Assembly: GCA_026874595.1 (NCBI GenBank)
Contig: CM049307.1
Coordinates: forward strand, 45,319,678-45,383,677
Source of the DNA: Sipunculus nudus
Taxonomy: Eukaryota > Annelida > Sipuncula > Golfingiida > Sipunculidae
Length of the DNA stretch: 64,000 nt
Direction: 5' to 3'
In this document: one piece after another, positions 6,001-43,299 of the stretch
Numbering within the stretch: the stretch's first letter is position 1
Layout: every line of letters begins with the position of its first letter
Translations under genes and position numbers: made by a program
The notes under the pieces: generated by a model
Told to the model about the DNA's origin: nothing
The model's database searches: none
Seen by the model: only the letters and a program-made list of their open reading frames with translations

Positions 6001-9000
6001 CAGGCCCACTGTTTCAGCAATAAACTCTGTCCTGCAACCACCAATATCTGTGAAAAAAATATATTAAACTAGAAATGTGATCAGAGAGCACAGACCTCTG
6101 CTAAGGCATGTTTATTAAACCTTTGTCATTCCTGAGAACACTTTAATCGAAATAATTGAAAAACACCCTTGCACATCATGGTTGCTGCCCTCGACTATAA
6201 ACACAACGAACAACCACCATGACCCCAATGCTGTACATTGATTTACTGACACATGATTAAGGTAAGGGTACTTGGTTTATAATATGGAAACAATAATGAT
6301 ACTAATCTCCACTTTTTCACTTTGTCTTTCTGTCCCAATATGTACAGAAAATACTAGTGCTAATCTGCTAGAGTTTTCTATCACTGATAGAGACAACCAA
6401 TTCAGTTCTTGGTAAGAAGGGTGCACTGTTACAGTACAGAACTTTACCAGAGATCTTGGCCTAGGAATGCATACCAAAGAGGAAGGGAATCCACTGTCTT
6501 GCAGTCATAAACTGGATATTTAATTAATTAATGAACCACTCTCAGGATTAAGTTAATAGTAAATATAGCTTGCAATATGAATAGGCTATACTAACCTTAT
6601 CATCTGGGCTCAAACAAAAGCATGTCACCTCATCATCATCCTGAAAAAAAAAGAAATAAATATTATCTCATATTAAATAATGGTTTGGCAGACTTTTGCC
6701 TTACACACTTATATTATATCCAATTGTATAATTCACAAAATTATAGGTGTCTTGGTGACAATTACTCTGTAAAATTTACAGGGCCATCTACCAGAACAAC
6801 TGTGTTGTCAAAGATGATACAGAAGAAAAAGGAAAAACAACATAGTTTTACACCTAAAAAGTATGGAATAGTGTAAAAAATAGTCTTTCCTTTAAGAGGT
6901 ATATAACTATTAATACTAAACAAGTAAATAACTAGATGTGGTCGGACAATGGTCCTCAGAGGGCCCTGCGTTTCTGCAAGTGCTGGACTAGTTTACATAT
7001 GGGTGAAATATTAAGTAAAATTTGAAAAATATGACAAACAGAAACAGGTTTATATCTATATGCATGAGGGAAAAAGTCCTACTGAATCAAATGATATTAA
7101 AGAAGATATGTCTGAAATAATGTGTGCAATAGGAAATCACCGAATGTAATCTGTTAGCCATATTTGATTCTGAGCCAGTCAGTAATTCAACAAGTCTGAA
7201 GCCCTCATAGGCACCAATGATCCCTGTGAAATTGGGAAAGCTGCAGTAGGTTGTTGTTAAGTTATTGTGTGCGAAAGAAAATCAGCAATCGGGCTGTGGC
7301 AGCCATATTGGAATTCCAACAGGTCTGTAATTCAACAGGTCTGGATCCCTTATAGGTACCAATCATCCCTGTGAATTTGGGAAAGCGGTAGGTTGTTGTT
7401 GAGTTATCGCGCGCAAAAGAAAATCAGCGGTTGGGCTGTGGGGGCCATATTAGAATTCAGACAAGTCTGTTATTGGATAGGTCTGGAGCCCTCATAGGTA
7501 CCAATCAACCCTGTGAATTTAAGAAAGCTGCAGTATGTTGTTGTTGAGTTATCAACGAAAGAAAATTAGCGATTGGGCTGTGGCAGCCATATTGGAATTC
7601 CGACATGTCTGTAATTTGAAGGGTCTTGAGCCCTCATAGGTACCAATCAACCCTGTGAATTTGGGAAAGCTGCAGTATTTTGTTATTGAGTTATCAACGA
7701 AAGAAAATCAGCATTTGGGCTGTGGCGGCCATATTGGAATTCCAACAAGTCTATAATTTGAAGGGTCTGGAGCCCTCATAGGTGCAAATCTGGTCTGTGT
7801 ATTTGGGAAAGCTGCAGTATTTTGTTATTGAGTTATCGCGCGCAAAAGAAAATCAGCATTTGGGCTGTGGCAGCCATATTGGAATTCCTACAAGTCTGTA
7901 ATTCAATAGGTCTGGAGACCTCATGGGTGCCTATCATTCCTGTGAATTTGGGAAAGCTGCAGTATGTTGTTGTTAAGTTATCGCACGTGAAATAAAATCA
8001 GCTTTTGGGCTGTGGCGGCCATATTGGAATTTCGACAAGTCTGTAATTCAATAGGTCTGGAGCCCTCATAGGTACCTATCATTCCTGTGAATTTGGGAAA
8101 GCTGCAGTGTGTTGTTGTTCAGTTATCACACACCAAAGAAAATCAGCGTTTGGGCTGTGGCAGCCATATTGGAATTCAGACAAGTCTGTAATTCGATAGG
8201 TCTGGAGCCCTTATAGATACCAATCATTCCTGTGAATTTGGGAAAGATGCAGTAAAGTTGTTGTTGAGTTATCATGCGCGAAAGAAAGTGTCACTGACGG
8301 AAGGACGGACTGACACGGTGATCACTATAGGGCACCTGCTTGTCAAGCAGGGCCCTAATAAACAAAAATTTACATTTTTTAAAGTTTTAAAACATGTATA
8401 AAGGGGCAGCACTGCAGGAGAATATGAATTGTTTTTCATTTATATTATCTCATGCAAAAACAAGTGACCACAATGCGGTCAGAAATGAGTTAATATTACC
8501 TGACCAATAGACTTCTGAAGCTGACCAGTGTCCACCTCAAGCACCTGGATGTACTGGCCACACTGACAGAAAAGCTGCTGACCATCTGATGAAATCTGAA
8601 ATGACAGGTATGTCTCAGGCTAATGACAGGCTGGCAAGGATTTTCTCATAAAATGACAGGTATGTCTGAGGCTAATGACAGGCTAGGAAGGATTTTCTCA
8701 TCACTATGACTAATATTTGTTTCTGGTGTTTTTGTCATGTATCTTTGATATATTTCTGTATACATTACATGTGTCATAAAAAAAGATATTTATTATTTGA
8801 TTATTAATTATCTACTTTGGTAATTAATAAAACATTATGGATTCCTTGTTCATATCAGGGTGCTTTTTTTTAAGTTTTGTGTGTTTTATATTCCAAATTC
8901 CTTGAAAGATGGTCATTGTATTTCTGGGAGTAATTTTGTAAACTTTTCTGTGGTAAATTCAAAATAAACTGAAAGTTAAAGAATTTACATACCTGAACCC

Positions 9001-30900: not shown

Positions 30901-33900
30901 TCAACTGCCTTGTAGGATGGAAAGGAGAAACATACACAGGGTCTTTCAGTCATTGATAATTGACAAATTTTGCAAGTTTCCTTGAATTTTTTGTACATTC
31001 TGGTACCAAACAATTGTAACCTCATATTCATTTAATGATCACATTATTCAGTTAGAGTCCATAGGGTATATTAGCTAACAAATTGGGGGATTGTCAGTTT
31101 CGTCGGTGCTGATGAATGTCTGGCTGAATCACGCTTGTGTGTCCAAATGGGCTTCCTGCTGTGCCAGCCAGTTGTTTTTTCTCCTCCATCTACATGAGAA
31201 GCTGTATTAGTGATACCCAATATTCTGTTACCAGTGATGTAAGACTTGAGTCCACACTTTGACCCAGAGTCCACACATGAGTCCACTTTTCAGGGGACTC
31301 CGACTTGGACTTGATGGTCCTGGACTCAGATTTGTATTCAGACTCAATTAGGAAACCAAACCCATTCCCCCTCAAGTCCAGTAAAAAAAAACTTTTTAAC
31401 TCAAGGTCTAGCATTGAGATTGAAAAAAACATCACAAAGACTTAAGTTGTATACAAACAATTGACTGAATATTTCAAACACAATAAGACTACCTGGCAGT
31501 TTACATTATATTCCTTCAAGAATGTCTAAATAGGACAGACCCTCTAGGTAAATGTAATTTATATTAACTTAAAGCAAGCATGAACTTAAATAAAAACACA
31601 TGATTATCTCAGATTTCCATTTTTAATATTTTGAAAATACATATCAGTTATGGACCTATACTCAGTTGCTCAAAGACTCAGACTTGAAAAGGTGGACTTT
31701 GACTTTGACTTGGCCAGTCTGGACTCAGACACGCACTTGGATAGCGGGGACTCGACTACAACACAACCTGTTACAATTGTGTATGTAATGTATTCAACCA
31801 AACATGTATCTGAATCTTAAGTGCTAGATTTAATTTGCATTAAACTGCATGATTTCCTTTAAAAGCAGGTTCACTAAATGATCATGAAATATTCATAATC
31901 AAGTCAAGGAATACTGGATCTCTTCTGAATTACCAGAATCTTTCTAAAAGTAAAATTAATTTCTGATTATTTATTCAAACCCCACAACTAATACATATGA
32001 GCTAGAGGCCTGTAAAGCTATATAATTTGTTCTAAATTAAAATAACATACCGTCTCCATTTTCCTTTTTAAAGTGAGCTCAGCATTGCATATCTTATAAG
32101 CAGATTTCCATTGTTACAGCTTTCAGGTATCTTAGAAAAAGATGCAAGTACTATACAGCAGGTACAACTACTGAGTGAGACATTACATCATCCTGTTGGG
32201 AGGAGGTACCCAGCTTCTTTAAGCTACAGAACAGCTTTCATGAAAGAATTAATCAAACAGGTATTGAAAAAATAATGACACATCAATATACAAGACATTC
32301 CTTGTTATTATATTATTAAGCTTTGTCTTGCAGAGATTATTGCCCAATTAATTTAGTAAACTTTATATTGATATATGTTTACCTATATAATTCTTATTCT
32401 TGCAGGATTTATTAGTTCAGTCTTTTCCCACGAAGTTTTCAGGTTACAAAGATTTCAGGTTGTACCCAGAGCTAGCCACTAATGATTTATACACCAGCCT
32501 TTCCTGGTAAAACAGACTATGCTTTCAATATAAGCTTACATCTCCAGCTTCGACTTCTTATGTAACCACATTGGCCTCTAACTGAGGCTGTCTCCAGGAA
32601 GCATTAATTTCCAGTAATCTTCCAGTTGGTTTGAAGACTGCACAGTCTCGCATCAACATTGGTAGCACCATTTTGGCCCGCTGACAATAGAGAGTCTCTG
32701 ACCAGTTCCAGGGTACCCTTACATCTTGTATGGAGGGCCACACTATATGGCTCGGGGAGGATGCATATATTTTCCTCATTTTATACCATGCCTCATGGCC
32801 TACAGGTACACTGTCACTTAAAATAAATCAGACAAAATTAAACAACCAATTGTTAGATACTTGGTGTACTTTCTAATAGTACCTACAATTTACGCTCCAA
32901 AAAATTGTTTTAACTCTGCTTTTATTCTGACGGCATGAAGGCAACCATGTTCTGCACAGATTACTGGACAATATCCAAATTGTACGCTACACATAAAAAA
33001 CAGATTTATACTTTGATTTGTGAGCTTACATGTATTCTTTTGTGTTAATTCATCACTTGTACCCTGATGTTAATATTGCTGACTGTTACCAAGGAATTGA
33101 TAGGATGCATGCCTGTTGCAGTGCTCTCCCGCGTATAACTTGTGTCACGACTTGAGTACAGACTTACTATTGCACCCTGATGTTAATATTACTGACTGTT
33201 TACCATGGTATTGATGCAATAGGATGGATGCCTGTTGCAGTGCTCTCCCGCGTATAACTTGTGTCACGACTTGAGTACAGGCTTACTATTGCACCCTGAT
33301 GTTAATATTACTGACTGTTTACCATGGTATTGATGCAATAGGATGGATGCCTGTTGCAGTGCTCTCCTGCATATAACTTGTGTCATGAATTAAGTACAGG
33401 CTTACCATCATACCCTGATGTTAATTTTACTGTCTGTTTACCATTGTATTGATGCAATAGGATGGATGCCTGTTGCAGTGCTCTCCTGCGTATAACTTGA
33501 GTCATGACTTGAGTACAGGCTTACCATCATACCCTGATGTTAATTTTACTGTCTGTTTACCATGGTATTGATGCAATAGGATGGATGCCTGTTGCAGTGC
33601 CTTCTTGCGTATAACTTGAGTCATGACTTGAGTACAGGCTTACCAGTCATTTGAGTCTTGTATTCACAGCTTCACCTTGGGCAGCACTTTATTGATTTCA
33701 TTTCATTCTATTCAGCCTTGTTAATATTATCACCTTCAGGACAGTTAACTGAAAGTGGTCACATTAGCTGAGTGGTCAACAGAAGGTATCTTATTATTAC
33801 CATAAAACAACAGAGTTAAAGGATAAACAATATTTTTGCATGTATACAAATATTTACTTTTTTTAAAACAATTTGTACATTGAACACCGGTTCTGTTTGT

Positions 33901-37900: not shown

Positions 37901-40900
37901 ATTGGTATTATGAAGATGCCTTAACCACTAGGCTATGTCCTTTCCCAAGAAATGAAAAAGCTAGTGAGGGAGTAGCAGGCCTATGGATAGAGGGATTTAT
38001 ATGTAATTATTTGTTTTAATGTGGGAATAAACGTTAAGAGATGGTATGTGTGTGACAATGAAACAATTAATGTGTCCCTGCGTGTTGGACAGTATCCAGT
38101 TCTATGTGATCCATATGATTTTGTAGATTCAGTTGGCCATTGAATCATTTATATATTTTTGTGCCTGAGCCAATATTTAATTCTACAAGTTTTATTTGAA
38201 TTTCAAAGTTAAATTAATCTTTGTTGATAAATAAGCATATGGTAAATCTTGGTAAATTTCCTGATATCTGTTATTCAAACTGATAACTGAAATTTACTAA
38301 CAAATGACCACCCTTTAATTCCCTGATGTAAAATGGACTTCTCATTATTAGTACACTTTTAGCATGGCCATGCAAATTTATTCTTAATGACATACTTATT
38401 TCCCAAGTGTTTATTTATTAAGCAAACATAAAGTTGCCACATAAATGCAATTTGTCCATATTGTCATCTGTGACACAGGCTCTGAAAGTGTTATTGCCTT
38501 TGTAGTATAATTCATATAGATCTCCTGTCATTTTAAATAAAAGAGGTATATTTTGATTTTTTACAGAAAAGTTTTGGAGCTTGGCAGTGGTTTAGGGTTC
38601 ACAGGTATAGCTTGTTGTCTAAACCTGCATCAGGAGTCCTACATGTTCTCAGACTGTCATGACAAAGTCCTGGACTTACTGAAAAGCAATATAGAACTGA
38701 ACATAACAGAAGGCGCCTGTCATGCATGGAACCCTGCCAGCAGTGGTACAGACCATTCAGGTCAGCAGAATAAACTTTCAAATTTTAATGATAATGATAA
38801 TGAAACTCTGGAGCAGAACATCTGCAGCACACATGAACCTAGTGACTGTGAAGATTCCTCTGAAAAGTGTCGTTCATTAAATAGAATACCATCAAGGAGT
38901 CAGTTGTGCCACAGCTGGGAGAGGGGGACCTCTGGTGGGAACAGTCTGCACCGATGGCATCTCAAACACATGAGGAATATCAGTGTTCTGAAGCTTGACT
39001 GGGAAGAAGTTTCAGATGAAGAACTTAGTCAGATTGACTGCAATCTTATCTTAGCGGCAGGTACTCCATTTCAAAACTTCCATCACATATAGCAACTTTT
39101 ATAAATAAGGGAACTATTTTACAGCCTTGATGGCAGCTGTATATTTGTAGAACTGTCTGGAAAATCAGTCACACTGCACAGAATCAGATCCACAAGAGTA
39201 CGAATCTGCTAGTTAGGGTTTGTGGGCATTGAAATGTAAGTCCCACAATGCACGAAGGCATCTAAATACACCAGCAGCGTAGGTATAAAGGTAGTGAAGA
39301 GGCTGAATAATGGAGTTAGTTCAAATATATTGGATTAAAATTGTTTGAAGGGAAATTACAAAAAAACCATGGGTGTTTTGTCTTGTGGACATCATGGTGT
39401 AAGTTATATCATGTAAGCATGCACATGTGAAACATAAATAGAATAAATTTCCGTGAAATGTAACAAAGTTTGATTTTGAAGTTTGATAGTTGAGTTTGGT
39501 AGTCCCAGCCCTCCTCACAATTTCAAAATGAAAGAGGTTTGTTTTGAGTATAAATGACCTGGCAGAAGGGTGGAGCACAGGTTTTGTTCTGTTCATGTTT
39601 AAAACTTGTATATGTGTACTTTTGTTAAACTGAGGAGGAGAGTTTAACTTTGTCCTTGGGGCATGAGACTCATTGACTTGATCTCTGTCTGATTAAGTTA
39701 GTACAACATTATAAGGTGGGTGGACCCAGCATTGATTGACAGGTTATTTGAATATTTATCACTGGACTCTCTTTTTTATAAACCAAATGGTCTCTTAATG
39801 TATATTATAAAATCACATCAACTATATAAGTATTTTATATCCTTTATATGTGTATAACATTTAATATCATTACTTTTCAGATGTGGTTTATGATATCAGT
39901 ATTATTCCTGCCCTGGTGAGAGCCTTGAGAACTATCCTCAAAAAGTCAACAGACAGTATATGTTATCTCGCCTCTACTGAGAGGAACCCAGACACCATGA
40001 AAGTTTTCATAGAATCACTTGGTAAGATGTTATATAATACAGTAAAGGTAAAATGACATACAAAAAAACAGGTGATTGACATCTACATTTACATAAAAGC
40101 TGGGCCAGAACAACTGTAAAAGGGGCCTATTGCAATATCTGCCATCTGTCAAATGAAGATAATCAATGGAACCTTTCATAAAAGAATAGGCTAGAAAACA
40201 CCAGTCCCATGGTACACAGTCTGTTGATTTTGTTTAAATCCATATGTGTTAACAAATGGGTAACCTATCAAAATATTCCAAATACATTCAATGTTGACAT
40301 CTGGTGGCAAGAAAGATGAACCAGAGTGTTGCAAATGACGTTTTGCAACAAGTGGCCTTTCAGCTCCATACATATATAACATATACATGCACAACCAACC
40401 AACTTCATTTTAATGATTTTTAGCTCAGTGTCTGAGCGAGAGTGATCACTTAGGTCTCTGTTACCCATATCCTTTGAGCTATAGGGCACAGAAGTACCTA
40501 CGTGAATAATTAAAAACTTGATACAAAACTCCAGTATCTGAATAACTAATGCATTGATCTCCATGAATCTACACATGCATATTGACCATGGAGTGTTCCA
40601 TCAGTTCCTGCAGACTAGTCGTGCCACCTGTATTTTTTTTTATTTAGACAATTTTTTTTCTCTGTTTTTTTTTAAATTTCAGATAAAGTGGTTTTGCTGT
40701 TAATAGGGCACACACTGGATCAATTTTTAACTTTGCATCCAAGGAGGTCCTATAAAAATCTCCCTGGAAACCTTAAATTAGGTTATAGTGACCTATATTT
40801 TGGGAATTCGGGAAAAAAACTGATTTTTAAGCACTCATTGAGTCAGATGGGGCACAAATTGTGTCCATTTGGCCTTTAATCCTCATACATGACCCTCACA

Positions 40901-41869: not shown

Positions 41870-42490
41870 CCAAGGCCTCAAGTCTATTCTCAAAACTGGT
41901 CCTGTAGAGCTCAAGCTTAAAGGGTAGCAGCCTATCTTTAAATAGAGAACTGTTGATGTTGTAGATTTGAAATGTCATTCATAATATATGACTATCTGAT
42001 ACTGCTATAAGGTTAGGTAAACATATTAGCAAGTAGATTTTTTATGTAACGGGAGAATTGCATCCAGGCAGAGTCTGGGCCTTGATGCAATTGCATCCAG
42101 AACAGAGGCTGGACCCTGATGCAATTGGCTATTGCAAAATGTGATGTCTCATGGTGGGGGGAGATTGGTCTTGCAATCACTAGGTGATTGCACATCTCTA
42201 GCCATGTGATAAATTAGATTTTTCACTGGTTCTGTGTTATCAAACTTTATTTTACATGTCTCCCTCTCATTTTGATATTGTACGATTTGGTATTTTCTAA
42301 ATTTGGCTCATTATGAATATGCAGATTATTCATGAAATATATCAGATGTTAGATTCAGTTGTTAAAGGTGACTGGGCACTAAAGCATTTAAAAAGGGTTT
42401 AATGCTAAGCTTTAGAGTTTAACATGACTAGATAATCAATCTTTGTAAGTTCATAAACTTTGTTTTAGATAAATATTTATATCTTACTTG

Positions 42491-42921
42491 TGTTACGAAG
42501 ACAAATAAATGAAGGGAAAATCCTGGGCCGATCCGGGAGTTGAACCAAGGTCAGTGGCACATAAGTCTGGCGTACCAACCGCTTCGCTAGCAAAGCAAGC
42601 TTCACTAGCGAGTCAGTTCGGTCTGCTTTCATGTCACTCCGTAACACACCCTCTTTTAAGAGCATTCTGCTATCAGAACAAGACTAATTATCCCAGGAGT
42701 CTCACTCTGGTGAGCTTATTCCCTGGGCCACAAAGTTAAACGTCACGTTAGACGAGCCCCCATTTTGTTACGAAGACAAATAAATGAGGGGAAAATCCTG
42801 GGCTGATCCAGGATTCAAACCCAGGTCGGTGGTGTACAAGTCTGGCGTCCCAACCGCTTCATTAGAAAAGCAAGCTTCACTAGTGAGTCAGTTCAGTCCG
42901 CTTTTATGTCACCCGGTAACA
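42491..42921 (-). mobile_element. TRIM-like mini LTR retroelement with tRNA-like promoter inside each terminal repeat
   Basis: Two direct repeats of equal length, 42491-42646 and 42766-42921 (156 bp each, judged roughly 85% identical by eye), begin TGTTAC and end GTAACA. They flank a 119-bp interior. The flanks are CTTG on both sides (42487-42490, 42922-42925), a 4-bp target duplication. In minus-strand reading, 3 nt after the first terminal repeat comes TGGGGGCTCGTC (42751-42762), the start of a tRNA-Pro primer-binding site. Purine-rich AAAAGAGGG precedes the second repeat. Each repeat also carries a pol III-type box A (TAGCGAAGCGG in the left copy) and box B (GGTTTGAATCC in the right copy). 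There is no coding sequence. The alternative reading is two neighbouring tRNA-type SINEs. Confidence 0.65.
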
Positions 42922-43299
42922 CTTGAGAGGAACAAGTTTTCCTCTGTTTTAATTTAAAACCTTGTGAAAAGATATACTCATGTAGACTTTGTTACGGGAA
43001 TTAAAAACTAATGAAATTGTGCTAGATTTGTGCATATTTGTGTTGTGCAAAGATTGCTTCACAATCACTAATATATACTAATTTGAATTTTATGATATTA
43101 ATTTATTTTTAATATTAATGCATGTATACTGGTATATACTGGTAACTGAGTCCTCCTCGTCAAAGTACAAAAGAATGAAGCTTTTTTTTTAATATTTTTT
43201 GGGTGGAGGTAACCGCCTCCATTTTTTTAATGCTTGCTTAGCTAAGTACAAAGTACAAGTACAGAGTTCCATTCCAGTTTTGGACTACGTGACAGGGGC

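Follow-up and report, generated by a model that had tools for sequence, protein, structure and literature searches.

TRIMs whose LTR carries a tRNA-like pol III promoter were named Helenus by Kojima, who used Censor and tRNAscan-SE (Kojima, 2024; PMC10886601). According to the available sections of that paper, 51 Helenus families occur in pteriomorph bivalves, the sole molluscs in its table; animal Helenus elements produce 4-bp duplications, use tRNA-Pro among the bivalve primers and measure 311–1263 bp. The same sections state that experimental validation of pol III transcription is lacking. No further paper on tRNA-type TRIMs was found, either by a full-text search for Helenus or in broader listings judged by title and the start of the abstract. 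A precedent from plants is Cassandra, a TRIM whose LTR holds a pol III promoter and terminator and which is stated to be transcribed from that promoter, with the start in the 5′ LTR and the end in the 3′ LTR (PMC10886601, available sections). Among molluscs, biv-TRIM forms solo repeats and tandem arrays, and no helper was found for it (PMC6934838, available sections). Pol III TRIMs raise the question of how elements that have hardly any sequence in common with an autonomous retrotransposon come to be recognised and copied.

The element described here is located in a window of 64 kb, by which we mean the whole stretch of DNA analysed, on contig C2 of a 1.43-Gb assembly (G000). We consider it very probable that it is a decayed Helenus-type TRIM with many hundreds of relatives in the same genome, a reading that takes in the pol III life cycle and the larger helper element proposed below. 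It agrees with Helenus in the tRNA-like boxes A and B of the LTR, the primer-binding site (PBS), the polypurine tract, the 4-bp duplications, the tRNA-Pro primer known from bivalves, the tandem arrays and the solo LTRs, and its length of 431 bp lies within the published range; it differs in the start of box A, which is TAGCG here and TRGCY in most Helenus elements, and in having recombined with an integrase-first Gypsy-type element, whereas the Gypsy link drawn by Kojima is a likeness of the PBS (PMC10886601, available sections). An earlier note on this DNA had thought the kind of element possibly undescribed. The 2024 description of Helenus overtakes that suggestion (PMC10886601, available sections), and the family in the window is a further member of that kind or possibly one of those already listed. 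Unlike Cassandra, which is derived from 5S rRNA and found in plants, the window LTR has no 5S match (PMC10886601, available sections). It is also distinct from biv-TRIM, which has repeats of 202–218 bp and an inner domain of 77–80 bp against 156 bp and 119 bp here, the tract GGGGAGA in most copies against AAAAGAGGG here, no unambiguous tRNA PBS and, in the available text, no mention of a tRNA-like LTR (PMC6934838).

The coordinates of the features are listed in Table 1. Two 156-bp repeats flank 119 bp, and they are identical at 134/156 positions, with 17 of the 22 differences being transitions. Because the PBS and the polypurine tract lie so on the minus strand, the element is read on that strand, in the order LTR, 3 bases, PBS, internal part, polypurine tract, 2 bases, LTR. 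The boxes run from A to B in the same direction as the PBS to the polypurine tract. The earlier note had read the paired repeats, the PBS-like motif 3 nt from one repeat, a second motif just before the other and the bracketing CTTG from the letters, and all of these are confirmed. Its further claim that each repeat carries boxes A and B holds for the 3′ LTR; in the 5′ LTR both boxes are decayed (box A TAATGAAGCGG, box B GGTTTGAATCC). No stop-to-stop frame of at least 110 aa overlaps the 431 bp. A conserved RNA fold was not seen in the internal domain (z = −1.23; 19/200 shuffles equally good), and the compensatory changes were not convincing.

Table 1. Features of the element and its flanks, in window coordinates.
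Feature	Position	Strand	Basis
Target-site duplication CTTG, left copy	42487..42490		Exact 4-bp duplications in 20/33 informative loci
3′ LTR, 156 bp, TGTTAC...GTAACA	42491..42646	-	Repeat comparison
TTTT just past box B, candidate pol III terminator, 3′ LTR	42517..42520	-	Putative function
Box B of tRNA-type pol III promoter, GGTTCAACTCC, 3′ LTR	42536..42546	-	Consensus match
Box A, TAGCGAAGCGG, 3′ LTR, 43 nt before box B	42579..42589	-	Consensus match
Internal domain, 119 bp, without frame of at least 110 aa	42647..42765	-	Frame scan
Polypurine tract AAAAGAGGG, 2 nt from left repeat	42649..42657	-	Sequence
PBS TGGGGGCTCGTC, 12-nt form, 3 nt inside right repeat	42751..42762	-	Exact in 29/44 internal domains
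5′ LTR, 156 bp, boxes A and B decayed	42766..42921	-	Repeat comparison, box scan
TTTT past box B position, 5′ LTR	42792..42795	-	Putative function; model requires read-through
CATAAAA, TATA-like, 5′ LTR, sense 14–20; without counterpart in window 3′ LTR	42902..42908	-	Same place in 73/84 LTR copies
Target-site duplication CTTG, right copy	42922..42925		Flank comparison

The promoter boxes were scored with the consensus TRGYNNARNNG (box A) and GGTTCRANNCC (box B) at a spacing of 30–65 nt. One such pair was found in the window and none in 40 simulations of 64 kb with matched dinucleotide composition; if box A must also end in a second G, the window element is missed as well. In a set of 84 LTR copies, box A was present in 71, box B in 56 and both in 46, with a spacing of 43 nt in 46/46. 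Box B keeps GGTTC and box A keeps TRGC in this set, and the fifth base of box A is not Y. A run of at least four T is located at sense 121–135, just after box B, in 75/84 copies, and a second such run lies upstream of box A in 42/84. In LTR variants of four loci (L032, L054, L062 and L073), about 21 nt upstream of box A are missing, at a place with a near repeat of a segment that resembles box A.

At the window LTRs, neither ARAGORN nor Rfam reported a tRNA; ARAGORN found no gene in the window nor in 44 of 60 fetched loci, and in 18 of these loci Rfam matched no tRNA family within an LTR, its weak matches being two to tmRNA (L013) and one to a snoRNA (L003). No Rfam family reached the gathering score in the window, and 5S was not among the weak matches. 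An excess of conservation in the boxes outside CpG sites was not seen (box A segment 0.937, box B segments 0.970 and 0.947, LTR mean 0.959), and a search for selection acting on them was negative. With no tRNA call, no conservation excess and a TATA-like CATAAAA in the LTR, pol III transcription and read-through are inferences, for which Cassandra is the precedent.

The most serious alternative is that the element is a true TRIM transcribed by pol II, with the tRNA-like boxes as a relic. CATAAAA occupies sense 14–20 in 73/84 LTR copies and could serve a pol II start or an upstream-aided pol III start, a TATA-like TATAAATAGGGG lies in the homology upstream of the LTR end of the candidate helper, and the unexceptional conservation of the boxes, together with their joint agreement with the consensus in only 46/84 copies, would suit such a relic. 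Against this, box A or box B is intact in most copies at a tRNA-like spacing, TTTT is missing from 40/44 internal domains, and Cassandra offers a stated case of transcription from the pol III promoter of a TRIM (PMC10886601, available sections). We regard pol II transcription as rather unlikely, and the pol III reading is preferred below.

The element is widely dispersed. Its exact 22-nt LTR/PBS junction, CGTAACA-AAA-TGGGGGCTCGTC, occurs at 765 places genome-wide, to which one array can contribute more than one junction, and the reversed control gave 0. Three queries were used to collect copies, namely the 431-bp element (55 rows, best 40 of 2756 candidates scored), the LTR (42 rows, best 40 of 2085) and the internal part (41 rows, best 40 of 972). 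From each, 30 loci were sampled, giving 90 loci, of which 70 were independent after the removal of duplicates. These comprised 40 loci with the order LTR-internal-LTR, 10 solo LTRs and 20 tandem or irregular loci (14 with three LTRs, three with four, one with six and two irregular); as the sampled loci are the best matches to the window copy, these shares are biased towards it and are not genome-wide rates. All 10 solo LTRs came from the 30 LTR-query loci, and the same LTR adjoins the internal part in 30/30 internal-query loci (L061, which is the window itself, to L090). The loci are scattered over many contigs.

Four near-identical copies are located at G000:C17:38068065-38109172 (L038–L041), with three LTRs in L038 and two in L039–L041. 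Since three of the four sit about 8.9 kb apart, the host DNA around them has been duplicated.

Insertion left a consistent signature. An exact 4-bp duplication flanks 32/55 independent two-ended loci, compared with a shuffle mean of 3.3 and a maximum of 10. After 22 loci flanked by AT repeats or homopolymers were removed, 33 informative loci were retained, of which 20 have an exact 4-bp duplication (mean 1.1, maximum 7 in 5000 shuffles) and 30 match at three or more of the four bases (mean 5.1, maximum 13); a 3-bp duplication was found in 1/33 and a 5-bp duplication in 1/33. By class, the exact count was 14/20 for two-LTR elements (shuffle maximum 6), 4/8 for arrays (maximum 5) and 2/5 for solo LTRs (maximum 2), so that the two-LTR class alone beats every shuffle by itself, because the solo and array counts do not exceed their shuffle maxima.

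The two LTRs of an element were identical at its birth. In 20 two-LTR elements, partner LTRs have 42 rare alleles in common, as against 15.9 ± 3.7 (maximum 32) when the LTRs were re-paired in 5000 trials. No fixed difference between left and right LTRs was found in these 20 elements, with position 101 near a tie. Identity is 0.919 within elements (38 neighbouring pairs) versus 0.909 between elements (3429 pairs), and the window pair, at 0.859, is among the lower pairs, one of its LTRs being closer to 73/82 LTRs of other loci than to its partner. The small contrast agrees with an old burst whose copies acquired most of their differences once inserted; exchange between copies may also have contributed. 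The suggestion of the earlier note that the window insertion is old is supported.

A 4-bp duplication with TGTNR ends is also the mark of Ginger-like DNA transposons. A non-autonomous element of that type, with ends directly repeated by chance, would account for the duplication, the TGTTA...TAACA ends and the imperfect 26-bp inverted arms inside the left window repeat, which are 73% complementary. DNA transposition, however, does not yield the 765 exact LTR/PBS junctions, a polypurine tract by the other LTR, or private variants common to partner LTRs without a fixed left/right difference; it is therefore set aside as very improbable. Still less probable is a tandem satellite whose unit measures about 275 bp. 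The arrays, which reach six LTRs at a spacing of about 255–281 bp, have that appearance, but 50/70 loci consist of one element or one solo LTR, on many contigs and with 4-bp duplications. Of the arrays themselves, 4/8 have an exact duplication and 7/8 match at three of the four bases, and arrays of the form LTR-internal-LTR-internal-LTR are known in other TRIMs (PMC6934838, available sections). The least credible account, two adjacent 156-bp tRNA-derived SINE insertions that flank 119 bp by chance, draws on the tRNA-type boxes in the repeat and the 10/70 single units, and is contradicted by the common LTR-internal-LTR order (40/70), the tandem or irregular chains (20/70), the constant junction of LTR and internal part, duplications of exactly 4 bp rather than of variable length, and, in the flanks inspected, varied sequence past GTAACA without a regular A-rich tail.

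The genome-wide structure, the 4-bp duplications and the rare variants common to partner repeats thus identify an LTR-type TRIM and not two SINEs. The earlier note had named mostly lone 156-bp units with their own duplications and A-rich tails as the pattern that would speak for SINEs; single units make up 10 of the 70 loci and complete elements 40. Its reading is supported in that the element is TRIM-like, its LTRs contain boxes of tRNA type and its PBS is of the tRNA-Pro type.

The PBS matches over 12 nt in the window and over longer stretches elsewhere. An 18-nt form, TGGGGGCTCGTCCGGGAT, is present in L010, L081, L097, L105 and L106, and its first 17 nt in L114; TGGGGGCTCGTCCGGGAT is complementary to the 3′ end of tRNA-Pro. 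The 16-nt form occurs at 637 places genome-wide, with 0 for the reversed control. Twenty of the first loci among these 637 were fetched (17 on C1, three on C2) and inspected by eye. Seven had a Helenus-like LTR end and two were unclear, while 11 carried the LTR end of a different element, which we call X.

X has the same PBS as Helenus, and its LTR ends in CGTAACA. Its junction mostly reads AGGTTCCGTAACA-TAAAAT-PBS-GCTTAATAG, with point changes, and the exact form occurs at 157 places genome-wide (control 0). Homology extends about 630–650 bp upstream of the X LTR end in the fetched loci. Neither the start of the X LTR nor a target duplication was found. When the Helenus LTR was compared with the X end stretches (241 bp), the best match outside the terminus was not significant (E 0.16). 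The larger coding partner with the same ends that the earlier note proposed to look for is matched in part, with the last 7 nt, CGTAACA, and the PBS agreeing and nothing more in the last 160 nt compared.

X is known from these short ends and from one 2.2-kb coding stretch of one copy, located about 2.4–4.6 kb downstream of one X PBS; from this distance and from the direction, the stretch and the PBS appear to belong to one element. An integrase was recognised (rve 1.5e-14, H2C2 8e-14), the best solved relatives of which are the PFV integrase (9.5e-27) and the Ty3 integrase (1.1e-20). The next open reading frame holds an integrase C-terminal domain (residues 10–42, 6e-7) followed by a Ty3-type reverse transcriptase (residues 132–225, 1e-15), so that the integrase lies ahead of the reverse transcriptase in this copy. 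A portion of 781 bp of the coding stretch recurs at 89% in L008. The order of integrase before a Ty3-type reverse transcriptase sets Gmr1 apart among Ty3/Gypsy elements and is the likeness between X and the Gmr1 type (PMC8220671, PMC6238403 and PMC2582038, available sections). In X, this likeness is one of domain order within 2.2 kb of the coding part. The evidence for a candidate helper in the same genome is the new part of the finding.

Helenus and X have been joined at one locus. L054 is a Helenus array in which, at positions 1853–2114, the 16-nt PBS comes after the second LTR and leads into about 55 nt of X leader (89%, E 1.5e-14); some 80 nt that lie outside the X stretches used come next, and then the internal domain of Helenus (90% over 104 nt, E 1.5e-38). 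The simplest account is template switching between co-packaged RNAs; recombination at the DNA level is possible. An X-like leader after a Helenus-like LTR end was also seen by eye in L101.

The observations suggest a life cycle of the following kind. Pol III would begin at the tRNA-like boxes of the 5′ LTR and would sometimes pass the TTTT just after box B, transcribing the PBS, the internal part and the polypurine tract. The transcript would stop in the 3′ LTR, either at the corresponding TTTT or, for roughly half of the copies, already at the second TTTT upstream of box A. Because of this start in the 5′ LTR and stop in the 3′ LTR, for which Cassandra is a precedent (PMC10886601, available sections), both RNA ends would carry a repeated R segment. 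Minus-strand synthesis would be primed by tRNA-Pro at the PBS and plus-strand synthesis by the polypurine tract, and integrase would yield the 4-bp target duplication. Both reverse transcriptase and integrase could be provided in trans by X, the larger tRNA-Pro-type Ty3/Gypsy element. Later recombination between LTRs would give the solo LTRs and the tandem arrays.

A more specific reading is offered tentatively, as somewhat short of probable. In it, one genome contains both a TRIM driven by pol III and the helper of that TRIM, a Gmr1-type tRNA-Pro Gypsy element that copies Helenus. Template switching would have left its traces in L054 and perhaps in L101, and the TTTT past box B would be a leaky terminator that helps to set R, a pol III equivalent of the poly(A) signal that retroviruses carry in R. 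Since this genome has hundreds of Helenus junctions, a coding element that agrees with them in PBS and terminus, and a recombinant of the two, the question of recognition becomes directly testable.

Further traces of tRNA-Pro were seen beside some LTRs. At positions 1434–1498 of L046, a tRNA-like stretch that ends in CCA, with the tRNA-Pro 3′ end, is located between a solo Helenus LTR and an X LTR end. It scores 30.7 bits with the Rfam tRNA model (gathering 29), ARAGORN calls no gene in it, and it is perhaps a reverse-transcribed copy of the mature primer tRNA; the imperfect duplication of the LTR there (ACTG/ATTG) allows for a later insertion beside the stretch. In L103 and L112, the PBS is followed, by eye, by letters like the tRNA-Pro T-arm that run into the LTR, as if the template had been switched in the T-arm common to the primer tRNA and the LTR.

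Elsewhere in the window, tandem arrays are located at 7156–8287 (period 145 bp, 7.9 copies) and at 33057–33645 (period 119 bp, 5.0 copies, 93% matches), and an exon-like lysine methyltransferase frame (Methyltransf_16; nearest solved chain EEF2KMT) lies at 38541–39092, about 3.4 kb from the element. A search for the mollusc haemocyanin domain PF14830 gave no match, its control being blind as well, and a ferritin exon matches ferritins of many animals. In the assembly, the small contigs C61–C127 hold intronless ferritin-family frames, some of which score equally on three or five contigs. The one that was read, on C127, matches bacterial ferritins, and these contigs probably represent associated bacteria in the assembly.
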